Below, piece by piece: positions 46,151-53,569 of a stretch of 64,000 nucleotides of DNA (positions are counted from its first letter, which is position 1; each line of letters opens with the position of its first letter). Where the stretch lies: NCBI RefSeq assembly GCF_003952365.1, contig NZ_CP034443.1, positions 1,481,001 to 1,545,000 on the forward strand, given 5' to 3'. The position numbers and the translations under genes were made by a program. This stretch comes from Mesorhizobium sp. M9A.F.Ca.ET.002.03.1.2 (GTDB lineage Bacteria > Pseudomonadota > Alphaproteobacteria > Rhizobiales > Rhizobiaceae). Below the pieces are notes generated by a model, which was not told the origin of the DNA, searched no databases, and saw nothing but the letters and a program-made list of their open reading frames with translations.

Positions 46151-47956
46151 ATGACCACGCCGATCAAGAACATCCGCAATTTCTCCATCGTCGCCCATAT
46201 CGACCATGGCAAATCCACGCTTGCCGACCGGCTGATCCAGCTGACCGGCGGGCTGGAGCTGCGCGACATGAAGGAGCAGGTGCTGGACTCGATGGACATC
46301 GAGCGCGAGCGCGGCATCACCATCAAGGCGCAGACCGTCAGGCTGAAATACCGCGCTAAAAATGGCGAGGACTATATCCTCAACCTGATCGACACGCCCG
46401 GCCATGTCGACTTCGCCTATGAAGTGTCGCGTTCGCTGGCCGCCTGCGAGGGCTCGCTGCTGGTCGTCGACGCCTCGCAAGGCGTCGAGGCGCAGACGCT
46501 GGCCAATGTCTATCAGGCCATCGACAACAACCATGAGATTGTCGTGGTGCTGAACAAGGTCGACCTGCCGGCGGCCGAGCCCGAGCGCATCCGCGAGCAG
46601 GTCGAGGAGGTGATCGGCATTGACGCCTCCAACGCCGTGCTGATCTCGGCCAAGACGGGCCTCGGCATTCCCGACGTGCTGGAGGCCATCGTCAACGACC
46701 TGCCGCCGCCGCGCGAGGGCGACATCACGGCCCCGCTGAAGGCGATGCTGGTCGACAGCTGGTACGACGCCTATCTCGGCGTCATCGTGCTGGTCCGCAT
46801 CATCGACGGCGTGCTGAAGAAGGGCCAGACCATCCGCATGATGGGCACCGGCGCAAAATACCTGGTCGAGCGCACCGGCGTCTTCACGCCTGCCCGCATC
46901 AATGTCGACGAGCTCGGCCCCGGCGAGTTCGGCTTCTTCACCGGCTCGATCAAGGAAGTCGCCGACACCCGCGTCGGCGACACCATCACCGAGGACAAGC
47001 GCCAGACGGCACACGCGCTGCCCGGCTTCAAGCCGGCGCAGCCGGTGGTGTTCTGCGGCCTGTTCCCGGTCGATGCCGCCGATTTCGAGGATCTGCGCGC
47101 CGCAGTCGGCAAGCTGCGCCTCAACGACGCTTCCTTCTCCTTCGAAATGGAAACCAGCGCCGCGCTCGGCTTCGGCTATCGCTGCGGCTTCCTTGGCCTG
47201 CTGCATCTGGAAATCATCCAGGAGCGGCTGGAGCGCGAGTTCAACCTCGACCTCATCGCCACCGCACCCAGCGTCGTCTACCGCCTGGCTCTGACCGACG
47301 GCACGGTCAAGGAATTGCACAACCCGGCCGACATGCCCGACGTGGTCAAGATCGCGGCCATCGAGGAGCCATGGATCCGCGCCACCATCCTCACCCCCGA
47401 CGATTATCTCGGCGGCATCCTCAAACTCTGCCAGGACCGGCGCGGCATCCAGGCCGATCTCTCCTATGTCGGCAAGCGCGCCATGCTGACCTACGATTTG
47501 CCGCTCAACGAAGTCGTCTTCGATTTTTATGACCGCCTAAAATCGATCTCCAAGGGCTACGCCTCCTTCGACTATCATTTGACCGACTATCGCGAGGGCG
47601 ACCTGGTCAAGATGTCGATCCTGGTCAATGAGGAGCCGGTCGACGCGCTGTCGATGCTGGTCCACCGCACGGCTGCGGAAAAGCGCGGCCGCCAGATGTG
47701 CGAGAAGCTGAAGGAGCTGATACCCCACCATCTGTTCAAGATCCCCATCCAGGCCGCCATCGGCGGCAAGGTCATCGCCCGCGAGACCATCTCGGCGCTG
47801 CGCAAGGACGTCACCGCCAAATGCTACGGCGGCGACGTCTCGCGCAAGCGCAAGCTGCTCGACAAGCAGAAAGAGGGCAAGAAGCGGATGCGCCAGTTCG
47901 GCAAGGTGGATATCCCGCAGGAGGCGTTTATCCAGGCGCTGAAGATGGGCGATTGA
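46151..47956 (+). CDS. lepA: Elongation factor 4 (ribosome back-translocase LepA)
   Basis: Universal bacterial GTPase that back-translocates stalled ribosomes. The 601-residue protein starts with [20 protein letters not shown] (P-loop AHIDHGKS), DTPGHVDF and NKVDLP GTPase motifs, two beta domains and the EF-G-like [15 protein letters not shown] and C-terminal domain ending [17 protein letters not shown] chose ATG 46151 to fit the family N-terminus. The last 104 codons and 127 bp of 3' flank recur as a diverged direct repeat at 49416-49842. Confidence 0.97.
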
Positions 47957-48083
47957 GAAGCCGGTCGGGCGTCCGCGCGCAGCGCGGCGCCGAGACATCG
48001 ATCCGGTGGATCGATGGCAGCCTTCGAAAGCGGGGGAGCTGCCGGAGGCAGCCGGCCCCACCACCGCGACGCTGAAGCTGCAC
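47644..48083 (+). repeat. lepA 3'-end direct repeat, copy 1
   Basis: This 440-bp stretch (lepA codons 498-601 plus 127 bp after the stop) recurs in the same orientation at 49416-49842 with scattered substitutions and a single 13-bp deletion. It ends three bases before the stop codon of the potassium channel gene, so the channel module begins exactly at the repeat boundary. Confidence 0.9.
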
Positions 48084-48085
48084 GA

Positions 48086-49150
48086 TCAAGCCGTCGGTGC
48101 CGCGCCACGCCGCTCAAGCGCGGTCTTGCGGATGATTTCCGCGATCTCCGGGCTGCTGCTGCACAGCATCTGGAAATCCGCCGCGTGCAGCGACAGGAGT
48201 GAGACCGCTGTTGCGGCGCTGACGGTCGCCATACGCGGTTCGCCGCTGATCAGCGCCATCTCACCGAAGAAGGCGCCAGGGCCAAGCTCCACCGGGTTCG
48301 GCATCACGACGCTGACGCGCCCCTCCACGACGAAGAACATCCGATCACCGGTCTCGCCACTGCGGCAGATCACGGCGCCCGCCGGCAAATTACGAGGTCT
48401 TAACGCTCGCACGATCTCGACCAGCGCAGCCGGGCCAAGCTTCTGAAACAACGGCACGCCGGCAACCAATTGCCAATTGCGGACGAAATCCTCGCGACGG
48501 ATTTCTTGATAGAAGCCGGAGGCAAGAATGCCAGCCCAGAGCGCGAAGATGCCGATGCCACACATCATGACCGCCCCGGCAAGGACGCGGCCGTCGAAGC
48601 TTTGCGGAATAGCGTCGCCATAGCCGGTGGTGGACAGCGTGACCACCGCCCACCACATTGCCTGGGGGATGCTGCCGAACTTTTCCGGTTGGATGTCGCG
48701 CTCGATGACATAGGCCGCGAGCGCGACACCGAACAGAACGACGCCGAAGAGCGTGGTGACGCCGATCAGGTTGCGCGCTTCGTTGGCCAGCACCCTGCCC
48801 AGCACCGGGAAGAAGGTCGAGTCGCGCAGCGGCTTCAGCAGCCAGACAGCACAGTAGAGGCTCCGGTCGGGCGTGCCGTCGAGCAGAAATGCGGCGAGTG
48901 GAACCAAAACCGCGAGCACATCAATGGCGATTGCCGGCGTCCTGTCCCGAAGGTCTCCCGCCCGGCGCTTGAGCAGCGTCTCGGCCATCTGCAGAAGATA
49001 GGCGCCCCAAATGACAGCGAGCACGGCAGTCAGAGCCAGTCTGCTTCGTCCGGACATGTTCGGCATCGTGAGCGTAGCCACCGCCACAAGCCCAATGGCA
49101 GCCAGCAGCGTGTTGAGCGGCGCGTAAATTCTTAAAGGTAGTACCGACAT
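48086..49150 (-). CDS. Cyclic-nucleotide-gated potassium channel (MloK1-like)
   Basis: A 354-residue tetrameric membrane channel very close to M. loti MloK1, a structural model for CNG and HCN channels. Six membrane segments (S1-S6) lie in residues 1-215; the pore helix and potassium filter TLSTTGYGD lie at about 170-178, and S6 ends GIFALWAGILASGFYQEIRR. The cyclic-nucleotide-binding domain (about 230-350) has the phosphate cassette FFGEMALISGEPRMATV with the conserved Glu and the Arg that binds the cAMP phosphate. cAMP would open the channel. The gene is inserted between two copies of the lepA 3' end and reads against lepA. I see no direct ligand gene nearby. Confidence 0.95.
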   Translation of the reverse strand: MSVLPLRIYAPLNTLLAAIGLVAVATLTMPNMSGRSRLALTAVLAVIWGAYLLQMAETLLKRRAGDLRDRTPAIAIDVLAVLVPLAAFLLDGTPDRSLYCAVWLLKPLRDSTFFPVLGRVLANEARNLIGVTTLFGVVLFGVALAAYVIERDIQPEKFGSIPQAMWWAVVTLSTTGYGDAIPQSFDGRVLAGAVMMCGIGIFALWAGILASGFYQEIRREDFVRNWQLVAGVPLFQKLGPAALVEIVRALRPRNLPAGAVICRSGETGDRMFFVVEGRVSVVMPNPVELGPGAFFGEMALISGEPRMATVSAATAVSLLSLHAADFQMLCSSSPEIAEIIRKTALERRGAAPTA

Positions 49151-49415
49151 TCTATGCCCACGAGCGGCTACTGCCCTCCAAAATAGGATGCCTTCGAGGC
49201 AAGCGTAAAGGTACTTACTGTCGCCGCGATGCGCCGATATCGGTTCTCGGGCAAGGCTAACTTGGTCGACTGTGGGCGTTGCGGACCGTTCTCTCGATAG
49301 TCCTCGCTTTTTTTCTCCTTCACTCCCTTGTCAATTTCGAGCTGACGCCGGAGCCGCGTCGGCAAGTCAAACAGGCGCCTCGCCATCGGCGGCGCCTTGG
49401 GCTTTGCCGGCACTT

Positions 49416-49842
49416 CGCGCTGTCGATGCTGGTCCACCGCACCGCGGCGGAAAAGCGCGGCCGCCAGATGTGCGAAAAGCTGAAGAAGCTGATCCCGCAT
49501 CATCTGTTCAAGATCCCGATCCAGGCCGCGATTTGCGGCAAGGTCATCGCCCGCGAAACCATCTCGGCCCTGCGCAAGGACGTCACGGCGGCGACGTCTG
49601 GCGCAAGCGCAAGCTGCTCGACAAGCAGAAAGAGGGCAAGAAGCGGATGAGGCAGTTCGGCAAAGTGGATATCCCGCAGGAGGCGTTTATCCAGGCGCTG
49701 AAGATGGGGGATTGAGAAGCCGGTCGGCGTTCGCGCGCAGCGCGGAGCCGAGACATCGATCCGGTGGATCGATGTCAGGCTTCGAAAGCGGGGGAACTGC
49801 CGGAGGCAGCGGGCCCTCGCCAGCGCGGCGCTGACACTGCAC
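49416..49842 (+). pseudogene. Frameshifted duplicate of the lepA 3' end (copy 2)
   Basis: A degraded copy of lepA codons 498-601 and its 3' flank. It begins abruptly at TCGCGCTGTCGATGCTGG without the rest of lepA. A 13-bp deletion, relative to the intact gene, in the codons for TAKCYGG shifts the reading frame, so it cannot encode the LepA C-terminus. Nucleotide divergence is spread across the copy, as expected between strains or species rather than for a recent tandem duplication. The repeat ends with CTGCAC, the same base as copy 1. Confidence 0.9.
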
Positions 49843-50070
49843 GGTGGAGATTACTCTCCAGGAGGCGCCTACTTCATCCAGATACATCCGATATATGAGG
49901 CCACAATGGCCGCATCTTGAAAAAGGGTGGCAGGGGCGACCCATCTAAAGGACGAAAGCCTAAGAAGGCCGCGCCCAAAACCGGTCGTTCGAAACAAGAG
50001 ATGAGCTTTCCCGTACTGCAACAATTCGTGATTCACATGCCGATTCCATGTTGTGAATCAATCTGTTATG
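49843..50070. other. Gap after the lepA repeat, no gene supported
   Basis: An open frame from a TTG at about 49917 encodes a Lys/Arg-rich start (KKGGRGDPSKGRKPKK) but lacks codon bias and family features, and may be chance. Composition drops toward AT-rich DNA here, marking the start of the accessory patch. Confidence 0.5.
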
Positions 50071-50097
50071 AAAAATGGCCCCGCGCTAACGGGGCCA
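50071..50097 (-). terminator. Rho-independent terminator of the DUF1508 gene
   Basis: On the minus strand TTGGCCCCG pairs with CGGGGCCA around TTAGCG, followed by TTTTT. It lies 38 bp after the stop of the DUF1508 gene. A second, weaker hairpin (AGCTGACCCTGA/TCAGGGTCAGCT arms, 50124-50161) spans that stop. Confidence 0.75.
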
Positions 50098-50123
50098 AGT
50101 TGGTTTACTCGCTGTTAACCAAA

Positions 50124-50161
50124 TCAGGGTCAGCTTACTCTTTGATGGGAGCTGACCCTGA
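50124..50161. repeat. 12-bp inverted repeat over the DUF1508 stop codon
   Basis: TCAGGGTCAGCT (50124-50135) and AGCTGACCCTGA (50150-50161) are perfect arms around 14 bases. It may fold in the minus-strand mRNA as part of the termination region, or be the footprint of an element excised from the site. Confidence 0.6.
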
Positions 50162-50302
50162 ACCCTTCACAAGAGTGATTGCGGAGATGCAATCAGTCCT
50201 GTTGAAGTAGCCTTCGCCGGAATTGGCGATCTTTTTGGAATTGGCGGCGTACAGCGTCCAGCGCCAATAACCTGCAATATCCGTATAGAGGTGGAAGTGC
50301 AT
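50135..50302 (-). CDS. DUF1508 (YegP-like) small protein
   Basis: A 55-residue protein made of one DUF1508 repeat: MHFHLYTDIAGYWRWTLYAA, then NSKKIANSGEGYFNRTDCIS. The pattern 'F-x-Y-x-D-x-x-G-x-W-R-W-x-L-x-A-x-N-x-x-x-I-A-x-S-x-E-G-Y' is the family's hallmark. AAGGAAAC lies about ten bases before the ATG. Function is unknown; YegP-type proteins are small and dimeric. The start codon overlaps that of the divergent gene at 50301 (CATG), so the two are arranged head to head with no spacer. Confidence 0.8.
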   Translation of the reverse strand: MHFHLYTDIAGYWRWTLYAANSKKIANSGEGYFNRTDCISAITLVKGSGSAPIKE

Positions 50303-50540
50303 GTCTGATGTTTCCTTCTCGGGTTCAGACGTTGAGTTTAACCGGTACCTGTTCGAGTACCGGCACGGTGGAGCGGAATGGGGTGTCGAGATAGTCGCCC
50401 GTTCGCCGGAAGAGGCTAAAGAGCGCATCAAATCCTTGGGCTGGGCTCGCTATCAAGGCGAGATCAAGACCACGGTCCACATTCCGACCGTCGGGCTCTT
50501 CAAACGAATTGCCAGACGATTCTTTCAAACGACCTTGTAA
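50301..50540 (+). CDS. Small conserved protein of unknown function, head to head with DUF1508
   Basis: A 79-residue protein, MSDVSFSGSDVEFNRYLFEY, then RHGGAEWGVEIVARSPEEAKERIKSLGWARYQGEI: a beta-sheet followed by a helix, resembling other small rhizobial proteins that end with a basic tail (FKRIARRFFQTTL). GAGGTGG lies seven bases before the ATG. Its start codon shares two bases with that of the DUF1508 gene on the other strand. The ribosome-binding site and 5' region of each gene therefore fall inside the other's coding sequence. Confidence 0.65.
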   Translation: MSDVSFSGSDVEFNRYLFEYRHGGAEWGVEIVARSPEEAKERIKSLGWARYQGEIKTTVHIPTVGLFKRIARRFFQTTL

Positions 50541-50910
50541 ATCCTGTAGACGCCTCGGTTGCTCTGGATGGCAACCTTATTTAGCGCTAATCATACCTGC
50601 AAACACTAAATATAGCGTTAACAGACAATTTATTCCCAGTCCGACAATTTTCCCTTTCCTGCCAGACTCCAACAATCCACGCGCGCTTCCGCCACCGCCC
50701 AAGTGGCGGAAATGCGGGGCAAAACGCACATAATCCGGGAAAAAGACCGGGCTCAGAACTCCGGTCGCGCTCTCAACAGAAACGCATAGCCTATAAAGGG
50801 CGACTCGTTTTCGCCCGTCAAGGATTCGTTTGTAGCTTTTATGTCCCAACGTCTTGGGCGTCTGAAATGTGAAGACTGGGGATAGAAAAGCGCCTCGCGC
50901 TCATCTCCAC
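50541..50910. other. Gene-free stretch with one hairpin
   Basis: This 370-bp gap has no supported coding frame. It contains the perfect hairpin TTCCGCCAC (50687-50695) / GTGGCGGAA (50703-50711). Base composition is lower in GC than the core regions. No promoter or repeat family is recognised. Confidence 0.6.
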
Positions 50911-51144
50911 TTATGAAGGGTTCGGCGGTCCGTGCAATTGGGTAGTGCGGAATCTTCCGGAAGCGACCTGTTCAAAAAGTTCCGTGGTTCCGCTCGGATT
51001 GCCAACCCTGTGCTTGGACAGGAAATTTGAATAGGTGCGATCTGCCCAGCCAGGACAGGCCCTTTTCACATCGGCAGCGTTGAAGGGCTCAGAGAGACGG
51101 CCCGAGCGCACAGCTTGGTAAATTTGGGAGGCAAATTCTTTCAT
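50911..51144 (-). CDS. Hypothetical protein
   Basis: A 77-residue basic protein MKEFASQIYQAVRSGRLSEP, with AADVKRACPGWADRTYSNFL and a basic C-terminus. A central helix pair with TYSNFLSKH looks like a small winged-helix or nucleic-acid-binding fold, but no family is recognised. The ATG at 51144 has AAGGCAG upstream and is preferred over one at 51186. Lower GC than neighbours points to transfer. Confidence 0.55.
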   Translation of the reverse strand: MKEFASQIYQAVRSGRLSEPFNAADVKRACPGWADRTYSNFLSKHRVGNPSGTTELFEQVASGRFRTTQLHGPPNPS

Positions 51145-51202
51145 TCTGCCTTGACGTGTCAATTGCTGCAAAAGGCGACCCCTCATGAGCTGGCGTAAAA
51201 GG

Positions 51203-51646
51203 TTAGGAAAATAATATTGACGCTACGGCGAAGAGAAACCGAACGCCCGCCGCCAGGCAGAAAAACAATGATATCGAGCACAGAATCCCAATGCTTCGAA
51301 GCCTAACGAAATTTGTCTTGGGAGCATGGGGAGGAAGAATGCCCATCGTAAAAATAGCCAGTCCTAGCGCCACAACCGCCCAAACAGCAGCATAGAGTAT
51401 GTGATATTTTTCGGGGCCATCGATAGGTCTATTTTCTAGTGCAACAAATGCCCCGATGCCAGCCAGGATAACTGACGAGCCGGTGATAACCGAGCTCAGT
51501 TGCCCCATAATCACAGATGCTCCTAAAGCTCGCTCGTCGGGTGCTTCCAGTTTGTTTTCTAGCTTGTAGCCTACCCAATAATTGAGAGAAATAAGCAGCC
51601 AAATAGCAGCAATACCGATGTCAGGCACTGGGAGGTCATTTGACAT
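51203..51646 (-). CDS. Hypothetical four-segment membrane protein
   Basis: A 147-residue membrane protein: IGIAAIWLLISLNYWVGYKL, VITGSSVILAGIGAFVAL, ILYAAVWAVVALGLAIFTMG and ILCSISLFFCLAAGVRFLFA. No conserved catalytic or transporter motif. Its first 11 bases overlap the end of the upstream gene for a secreted protein, so they are probably translated together and may act as a pair, for example toxin and immunity or receptor and anchor. This is inference. Base composition is AT-richer than the genome core. Confidence 0.6.
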   Translation of the reverse strand: MSNDLPVPDIGIAAIWLLISLNYWVGYKLENKLEAPDERALGASVIMGQLSSVITGSSVILAGIGAFVALENRPIDGPEKYHILYAAVWAVVALGLAIFTMGILPPHAPKTNFVRLRSIGILCSISLFFCLAAGVRFLFAVASILFS

Positions 51647-52163
51647 CGCTCAAACTTTCAAGATTTAGAACATTACTGAAATAGGTTTTTGGGTCTTTCG
51701 GCCACTGGGTTTCAATCACCTGTTGGGCTTGGCCGTCTTCGATAAAGGCGGGGAACTGCGTCACCAAAGGTCCAACAGCAGCGCGAATTTCGTCTCGGAC
51801 GCTTTCGTTGCCGAAAGCAGCATATGCTTTCGGCCAGTATGGCTCTGCGATCGGCGGCTTATTTGGCCACAGGCACCATGCAGCGAGTCCCGCCTCATAG
51901 TCCTCGTCAGAAGGAGTCTCGCGACCATTCTTAAGCGCAACGACACGGGCTACTTCGTTCGCGGCCGCCAGAAGGCCCATGTAACGCCCAATTTCTTCGG
52001 GCGAGACAGATCCCCAGTTCACCCCCAATCGTTCTGCCAGCTGGGAGCTAGAAGCTATCCTCTGAAGGCGCTCTGGAATAACGATCGGGCCGTTTTCCTG
52101 CGCTCTAACAATTGAAGCAGAAATGATTGAAACTAAGAAAGCAATAACAGCTACGCGAAACAT
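51636..52163 (-). CDS. Hypothetical secreted protein
   Basis: A 175-residue protein with a Sec signal peptide (MFRVAVIAFLVSIISASIVR, cleaved near VRA-QENGP). The mature part is acidic and helical (ASSSQLAERLGVNWGSVSPEEIGRYMGLLAAANEVA is typical; only GVNWGSVSPEEIGRYMG quoted here as a landmark), with AAWCLWPNKPPIAEPYWPKAY in the middle. I recognise no family. It overlaps the membrane protein gene by 11 bp and is its likely partner. Both are in the lower-GC patch. Confidence 0.6.
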   Translation of the reverse strand: MFRVAVIAFLVSIISASIVRAQENGPIVIPERLQRIASSSQLAERLGVNWGSVSPEEIGRYMGLLAAANEVARVVALKNGRETPSDEDYEAGLAAWCLWPNKPPIAEPYWPKAYAAFGNESVRDEIRAAVGPLVTQFPAFIEDGQAQQVIETQWPKDPKTYFSNVLNLESLSDVK

Positions 52164-52327
52164 CGCCTCTCCCCCATCCTAAGACCACGCATCTTGTGGC
52201 GCGTGGAGCGACCGAGTCAATGACTCTGGGAGACTGCGCCCTGACTCTTGTCTGAGGCGCCGCCACGCAGCACCCGAGGCAGCAGGCCCCCTCGACTTGC
52301 GCCTCTCTTTCCGCTTCACTTCCGCCC

Positions 52328-52837
52328 GTGTCTTCGCGCGTCGAAATCCGCAACAGCCCCACCGGAAAGCTCTTTCCCGCGATCGGGCCGTTGCTGATCG
52401 CGGCGATCTTCGGCTTCTTCGCGCTGAAGGGGCTTGCGTCAGGTGCTGCGGGCCAAGGGCTGTTCGTGGTGGCGGTGCTTGCGCTTGGCTGCCTGGGGCT
52501 TGGTCTGTTCCTGGCGCGCGGGGCGTTCGACACCGGCGTCCAGGTGGTGCTCGACGCCAGCGGTTTTCGCGACCGGCGCGGCGGCGACGTGCTGGTGCCG
52601 TGGCAGAGGGTGCGCAGCGTGCGCCTCACCTCCGGCAAGGGCGCGGCGATGATCAGCTTCGAGCTGACCGAGCCGCCTCCCGATGCGATCAAATACGCGC
52701 CGGCCAACGCGCTTGCCCTCTTGCTGCCCTTCGGCAAGAACATCGTCCACATGGAGATCTCCTCGCTCGACATCACCGGCGCCGACATGATCGCGGCGAT
52801 CCGGCGGCTCGCGCCGCATGTGGCGGTCGACGGCTGA
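52328..52837 (+). CDS. Hypothetical membrane protein
   Basis: A 169-residue protein starting with GTG. Two hydrophobic segments near the N-terminus (AIGPLLIAAIFGFFALKGLA and LFVVAVLALGCLGLGLFLA) precede a soluble domain (VVLDASGFRDRRGGDVLVPW, RVRSVRLTSGKGAAMISFEL) that looks like a PH- or STM3941-type fold with a beta-sandwich. No clear ribosome-binding site. Back to core-like base composition. Confidence 0.6.
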   Translation: MSSRVEIRNSPTGKLFPAIGPLLIAAIFGFFALKGLASGAAGQGLFVVAVLALGCLGLGLFLARGAFDTGVQVVLDASGFRDRRGGDVLVPWQRVRSVRLTSGKGAAMISFELTEPPPDAIKYAPANALALLLPFGKNIVHMEISSLDITGADMIAAIRRLAPHVAVDG

Positions 52838-52942
52838 GCGCCCAGCCTTTTCCCACAAACAAGGGGAGAAGGGTATCGCGGACGCCGGCTTGACGCCGTC
52901 CCGGCCACCGCCATAGCGTGAGGCTTGAGCAAGGAGCACAGC

Positions 52943-53569
52943 ATGGCAGGCATGGTCCAAGGCGAGAAAATCGATGTTGGCTTTTCCGGCCGGCGCTGCA
53001 TCCATTCGCGCAATTGCGTGCTGGGCGATCCGCATGTCTTTGAGCCCAACGCGCCCGGCCAGTGGATCCATCCCGAGGCGGCCAGCGTCGAGAAGATCGT
53101 GGCGATCGCCGAAAGCTGCCCGTCGGGCGCCATCACCTATGTCAGGAAGGATGGCGGCCCGCAGGAACAGCCGCCGGTGGTCAACACCGTGCGCCTGCGG
53201 GAAAACGGCCCGCTGGCGCTGCACGCCGAAATCGTGCTGGACGGCGAGACGTTCTTCCGCGCCACGCTCTGCCGCTGCGGCGCTTCGGAGAACAAGCCGT
53301 TCTGCGACGGCAGTCACGCTAAATCAGGTTTTGCCGCCACCGGCGAGCCGCCGCTGAAGGACACGCCGGCGCTGGAGACGCGGGACGGGCCGTTGAAGGT
53401 AACCCCGACGACCAACGGCCCGCTCAAGCTCGAGGGCAATCTCGAGATCGTCACCGGCACCGGGCATACGGTCGACCGGACGACGCGAACCTTCCTCTGC
53501 CGCTGCGGCCATTCGGCCAACAAGCCGTTCTGCGATGGCTCGCATAAAAGGGTGGGGTTCGTGGCATGA
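52943..53569 (+). CDS. Iron-sulfur protein with Fer4_19-type and two CDGSH domains
   Basis: A 208-residue protein with three cluster-binding modules. Residues about 10-70 form the divergent Fer4_19 domain with Cys19, Cys25 and Cys59. Two CDGSH iron-sulfur domains follow: CRCGASENKPFCDGSH at 110-125 (Cys110, Cys112, Cys121, His125) and CRCGHSANKPFCDGSH at 186-201. CDGSH clusters are 2Fe-2S, redox-active and acid-labile. Such tandem forms occur in bacteria but their role is not known. AAGGAG precedes the ATG at 52943. A cupredoxin gene follows. Confidence 0.93.
   Translation: MAGMVQGEKIDVGFSGRRCIHSRNCVLGDPHVFEPNAPGQWIHPEAASVEKIVAIAESCPSGAITYVRKDGGPQEQPPVVNTVRLRENGPLALHAEIVLDGETFFRATLCRCGASENKPFCDGSHAKSGFAATGEPPLKDTPALETRDGPLKVTPTTNGPLKLEGNLEIVTGTGHTVDRTTRTFLCRCGHSANKPFCDGSHKRVGFVA

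Follow-up and report, generated by a model that had tools for sequence, protein, structure and literature searches.

A displaced lepA 3' end beside a predicted MloK1-type channel gene in Mesorhizobium as the likely scar of a one-sided recombination

Homology-facilitated illegitimate recombination (HFIR) is described in passages of PMC3240628 for three naturally competent species and for conjugation in E. coli, and the same passages report single crossovers by ligated circles in E. coli. A mechanism akin to HFIR is proposed, in the portions of PMC5361080 that concern displaced genes, for the T6SS orphan immunity-gene arrays of Vibrio cholerae and for orphaned Rhs 3' regions; there the authors argue against duplication since the alleles of one genome do not cluster. 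For small variable genome segments, a part of PMC2884548 credits largely illegitimate recombination and discusses a homology-assisted form. Our search for literature on a partial duplication of lepA with horizontal gene transfer found none, and the titles and abstract openings listed for HFIR, MloK1 transfer and Mesorhizobium recombination or islands hold no account of the arrangement described below.

We analysed a window of 64,000 nucleotides from contig NZ_CP034443.1 of Mesorhizobium sp. M9A.F.Ca.ET.002.03.1.2, in which a channel gene lies between an intact lepA and a second copy of the lepA 3' end (Table 1). The lepA frame runs from the ATG at 46151 to the stop codon at 47954-47956 and comprises 601 sense codons. 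As originally predicted, the lepA 3' end recurs as a direct repeat: in a pairwise alignment the copies have the same direction and are 90.0% identical over 442 columns with 29 mismatches. The copies were said to differ in length by exactly one 13-bp deletion. This deletion is real, but the net difference of 13 between their 441 and 428 bp also involves two compensating 1-bp gaps past the stop codon. Copy 2 lacks the lepA start and is frameshifted. The longest exact runs shared by the copies, 49 and 44 nt, both lie 3' of the deletion. The repeats could indeed loop the channel out, as had been suggested, but lepA would end up frameshifted after a crossover 5' of the deletion and would stay intact only after one 3' of it. 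Among the candidates scored (11 of 153 and 4 of 100), the two copies are the sole matches at E ≤ 0.001 to the lepA end in the 6.4-Mb genome, copy 2 with an E value of 2.7e-171. When the window was compared with itself (blastn, plus strand, E ≤ 1e-10, at least 100 columns), one further repeat pair appeared, of 104 columns.

Table 1. Features of the lepA locus, with their positions in the window
Feature	Position	Strand	Basis
lepA (EF4), intact, 601 codons	46151..47956	+	Pfam LepA_C, GTP_EFTU, EFG_C; reading frame
Copy 1: lepA codons 498-601 and about 128 bases past the stop	47644..48084	+	alignment
MloK1-type cyclic-nucleotide-modulated potassium channel (predicted), 354 aa	48086..49150	-	Pfam and PDB 2zd9 alignment
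Channel upstream region	49151..49376		comparison of channel loci
Scar: 5' piece of the conserved gene for a 171-aa membrane protein (g171), start codon lost	49377..49415	+	36/39 identity
Copy 2: 5'-truncated lepA 3' end and post-stop sequence, 13-bp deletion between 49584/49585	49416..49843	+	alignment
Ordinary post-lepA continuation	49844..49867	+	alignment behind the lepA of relatives (reaching 49866-49867 in L116, L121)
Variable DNA, small ORFs and 310-bp copy of nrdJ-like upstream region	49868..52303		sequence comparison
Conserved downstream gene	52328..52837	+	conservation in relatives; no Pfam family
CDGSH / Fer4_19 iron-sulfur protein gene, conserved downstream	52925..53569	+	Pfam; conservation

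The post-lepA sequence of both copies contains the near-palindrome ACATCGATCCGGTGGATCGATG (47995-48016 and 49753-49774), which was also found behind lepA in several relatives and is possibly a terminator or a dispersed repeat. Rfam gave one match in the window stretch, far below the gathering score and inside lepA, which was disregarded, and ARAGORN detected no tRNA-type gene in the window; thus neither search points to a tRNA-type integration site.

The differences between the copies resemble those between functional alleles. In the coding part, 14 of 18 fall at third codon positions (one-sided p = 1.4e-4 against 1/3), a bias indicating that both copies probably diverged as working alleles. 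When 133 other loci are considered, copy 2's base is present in lepA elsewhere at 16 of the 18 sites and the copy 1 base is private at three, which argues that copy 2 did not decay from the present copy 1. Judged from these sequences, most of the divergence probably arose while both were parts of working genes, in different strains. Bearing on the predicted origin of one copy in a related strain is a tree of 310-nt lepA ends, which omits L221, whose segment holds stop codons, and L086, whose lepA runs off its contig. An AU test does not reject the copies as sisters (p-AU 0.8) and the likelihood is higher with the copies together, from ends that are too short for a well-resolved tree (10 of 134 inner branches are starred). 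This counts against a firm claim of two source strains and leaves some probability to a duplication and divergence within one lineage. The median identity to the lepA of relatives is 92.6% for copy 1 and 91.2% for copy 2. One and the same group of relatives is nearest to both copies, and neither can therefore be named as the native or the foreign one.

The predicted channel contains the domains Ion_trans, Ion_trans_2 and cNMP_binding, all above the Pfam cut-offs, and aligns near full-length with Mll3241/MloK1 (PDB 2zd9; 660 bits, residues 1-353), with the motif TTGYGD visible. It thereby fits an MloK1-type CNG K+ channel with a transmembrane module and a C-terminal cyclic-nucleotide-binding domain. 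Within the window region there is one channel match only. The original prediction had the channel gene begin beside copy 1; it is encoded on the minus strand with its 3' end towards lepA, and it is the stop codon (48086-48088) that adjoins copy 1. Behind the lepA stop codon, copy 1 follows the sequence of G010 and G092 until near the channel stop and then runs into the channel. Copy 2 follows the same two genomes and then passes into the ordinary continuation seen behind lepA elsewhere. The left limit of the channel segment is thus the point at which two related post-lepA sequences part, and to speak of a 1.3-kb module framed with base precision was too strong.

Within the variable DNA further downstream, PADLOC detected nothing in the six small ORFs between copy 2 and 52303. 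The stretch 50577-50890 is an approximately 82% identical copy of the 310-bp region upstream of an nrdJ-like gene elsewhere in the genome, which from its sequence we take to be a B12-dependent ribonucleotide reductase gene. Similar extra copies of this region lie downstream of lepA in G153, G036 and G147.

The right boundary is not neat either. The channel upstream region is common to G014, G030, G031, G074, G065 and G081 up to about 49375-49400, and none of these six genomes has a lepA end at that flank; in the five other channel loci compared, where the channel is not near lepA, it is shared only to about 49234. The region had been predicted to run up to copy 2, but its last 39 bases (49377-49415) correspond to the coding start of g171, with 36 of 39 positions identical and the first 15 bases also present in the channel upstream region of G014. 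None of 500 random 39-mers from the window scores as high against 94 g171 starts, and none of 500 24-mers scores as high as the last 24 bases of the stub, that is, without the 15-base word. No further part of g171 was detected in the window region. Thus the channel is not neatly framed, and a neighbouring gene is broken at the join. At this illegitimate junction (49415/49416) g171 codons are joined to lepA codon 498, with little shared sequence there by eye.

An undisturbed order is seen in G014, where lepA is followed by the convergent channel gene and then, from the divergent upstream region, by a full g171. The lepA of G014 is split by a contig end, one contig stopping at w47696 and the other starting at w47695; the two pieces would represent one gene. 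In G030 lepA and the channel adjoin on one contig, and both genomes are without a second lepA end. In G030 the g171 lacks approximately 54 codons at its start, the same place being damaged in another way.

We then consider lepA loci across the genus. Of 145 other genomes surveyed, 141 gave a match to the lepA end and 134 were compared, yielding 135 loci (G113 is represented twice); G024, G070, G075, G085, G110, G135 and G164 were left out. A second, 5'-truncated lepA end downstream of an intact lepA occurs in at least five of these loci (G020, G092, G125, G162 and G153), a lower bound since the downstream sequence of 488-14,907 bases is short in some loci (below 2 kb in 3, below 5 kb in 21). 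The channel is absent between lepA and the remnant in all five. Instead, the intervening DNA of G020 and G092 encodes a 226/239-aa membrane protein, that of G125 a 178-aa protein (by first ATG) and that of G162 a small protein; in G153 the interval is short and holds a tRNA-Ser and a copy resembling the nrdJ upstream region. The same arrangement in every Mesorhizobium, which would have spoken for an old vertical duplication, is therefore not what the genus presents. The remnants start at varying lepA positions (-309, -268, -188, -131 and -126), and those of G020 and G092, with the same start and the same neighbour gene, look like one event. Third positions account for 10 of 15 differences in the lepA pair of G125 (p 0.009), 6 of 9 in G162 (p 0.04) and 19 of 37 in G153 (p 0.018), the bias not being significant in G020 (8/17, p 0.17) and G092 (6/13, p 0.24); these p values are uncorrected for 11 tests. 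The sister test for the pair of G125 has the same outcome as in the window (p-AU 0.94). Beyond the five loci, a more sensitive search for decayed lepA ends returned weak reverse-strand matches only, of 57-100 columns in six loci, which were not counted.

Directly after its lepA remnant, G153 (L096, 878-3085) encodes a reverse transcriptase that matches best with type II-A retrons (E 6e-73), and a weak NDT_II-A-like partner lies beyond it. Partial local repeats are present downstream of lepA in many of the 135 loci, for which the window alone was scanned for comparison. The lepA repeat is thus not unique in kind, and the region downstream of lepA may be unusually prone to rearrangement.

When the best candidates of each genome (up to 14) are scored, a strong channel match (E below 1e-150) is found in 58 of the 145 other genomes. 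In at least six of the 58 the channel start lies within 4.1 kb after lepA, and contig ends may hide more. With the same scoring, a strong match is absent from all 14 closest relatives (G166, G134, G129, G127, G092, G087, G164, G169, G167, G020, G072, G016, G089 and G135), whose best E values of 7e-10 to 2e-7 correspond, among the matches listed, to the cyclic-nucleotide-binding stretch. The matched flank pieces are 89-95% identical to these relatives (part of the upstream piece only for G134, upstream only for G135). Collinearity with close relatives extends over lepA and the two flanks, and the repeat offers approximately 440 bp of homology. In G031, G074, G065 and G081 the channel is flanked by a g171 fragment on one side and a full g171 on the other, mirroring the scar in the window. 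Third positions make up 18 of 28 differences in the g171 pair of G031, 9 of 24 in G074 (not significant), 25 of 53 in G065 and 13 of 22 in G081. In a tree of 32 channel sequences the seven lepA-near channels fall into two separate clades, and one clade is rejected (AU p 2e-67). Either the position was filled repeatedly or channel genes were exchanged in place, and a single transfer is too simple a history for the cassette. On the basis of this tree, one common origin of the channel's lepA-near position was dropped.

From the sequence comparisons we consider the repeat rather likely to be a scar left when one-sided recombination brought together two lepA alleles of related strains, with an illegitimate join at 49415/49416. 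One allele would have been linked to the channel, in the order lepA, channel, g171 as in G014, and the other to ordinary post-lepA DNA. One end would have been joined via homology in lepA or its conserved flanks and the other illegitimately, g171 codons to lepA codon 498, leaving an intact lepA, the channel, a g171 stub and a stranded lepA 3' end. The mechanism would be HFIR; an identical layout would result if a ligated circle had integrated through one crossover within the repeat. What we infer from this layout concerns the origin from two strains, the mechanism and the direction of the event, and either the channel side or the copy 2 side may be the incoming one. Conjugation, transduction, a gene transfer agent and transformation are candidate routes of uptake. 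The reading is supported by the ordinary continuation after copy 2 with the channel after copy 1, by the g171 stub exactly before copy 2 and by the lepA-channel order without a second lepA end in G030 and G014. It is further supported by the third-position bias of the coding differences, by the lack of a strong channel match in the 14 closest relatives, by the order of intact lepA, other DNA and truncated lepA end in five other genomes, three of them with such a bias, and by the mirror-image g171 scars. No donor or exact pre-event strain was found among the genomes compared. In its general form, recombination around lepA between related strains, the original prediction is likely to hold: the layout is not genus-wide, the 14 closest relatives are without a strong channel match and the copies differ like alleles.

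Other histories account for part of these data. Unequal recombination within one lineage could have doubled the lepA 3' end, and perhaps the channel, with subsequent loss of the second channel and drift of the copies. Such an internal tandem duplication is in keeping with the unrejected sister copies (AU p 0.8), with the same relatives being nearest to both copies and with the partial local repeats common in the region. We nevertheless find it unlikely, given that 14 of 18 coding differences lie at third positions despite the broken state of copy 2, that the window region has a single channel match and that copy 2 is followed by ordinary post-lepA sequence and not by channel sequence. The history originally put forward was that recombination in lepA brought in the 1.3-kb channel module as one piece, along with a foreign lepA 3' end, namely copy 2. 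The ordinary downstream continuation of copy 2, the g171 stub between channel and copy 2, and a channel flank that six genomes share up to 49375-49400 with no lepA end there make it quite unlikely, even though the strong channel match is absent from the 14 close relatives, the copies diverged like functional alleles and copy 2 is on average less like the relatives' lepA than copy 1.

Site-specific elements leave behind a reconstituted gene 3' end and a displaced remnant, a layout like that of the lepA locus. That an integrase-type element inserted at the 3' end of lepA and used the repeats as attachment sites is nevertheless very improbable. Pfam identified no integrase among the 10 proteins scanned between 43.7 and 53.6 kb, a set that does not include every small ORF. 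The repeats, at 441/428 bp and 90% identity, are not short and exact, and remnants begin at differing lepA positions across genomes. An integrase-type genomic island at the lepA 3' end was accordingly rejected, with no integrase in the scanned proteins and no short near-exact repeats at a fixed position.

Returning to the one-sided joining of two lepA alleles, we most likely observe an event of a known kind in an unusually legible and well-preserved case. Natural examples of apparent one-sided recombination at an alphaproteobacterial housekeeping gene are valuable at the nucleotide level, and here the anchor gene is still legible, as are the illegitimate join and the displaced end. The channel is accompanied by a lepA scar in one genome and by g171 scars in four more. 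From scars of this type the number and orientation of cassette exchanges could be read, and they go some way towards explaining why a well-studied channel gene occupies differing positions among related strains. A wider idea, which we put forward tentatively and hold to be somewhat doubtful, is that the lepA-g171 stretch of Mesorhizobium might act as an integrase-free docking site. Cassettes such as the MloK1 channel, or the retron beside one remnant, would there be exchanged again and again through one-sided recombination, with lepA or g171 as the anchor, and the stranded ends would record the number and direction of the exchanges.

Compared with MloK1 (Mll3241) itself, the channel has the same domains and a near full-length match, and differs in its location, which is near lepA in at least six of the 58 other genomes. 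The locus resembles the small variable segments treated in part of PMC2884548 in that short, strain-variable DNA lies between conserved sequence; those segments, as characterized there, are not defined by a retained partial copy of a flanking gene. The T6SS and Rhs loci, in the relevant portions of PMC5361080, come closer, since a conserved upstream region serves as the anchor for the incoming piece and the resident 3' part is retained at a displaced position downstream. The displaced T6SS genes are immunity genes (PMC5361080, same portions). At lepA the displaced piece is a broken housekeeping-gene 3' end for which no use is evident, and the tree test leaves copies 1 and 2 unseparated. HFIR events, in the passages of PMC3240628 that describe them, are laboratory events, whereas the lepA event is deduced from a genome; with these it would share one homologous and one illegitimate end and the addition of DNA beside a homologous anchor.
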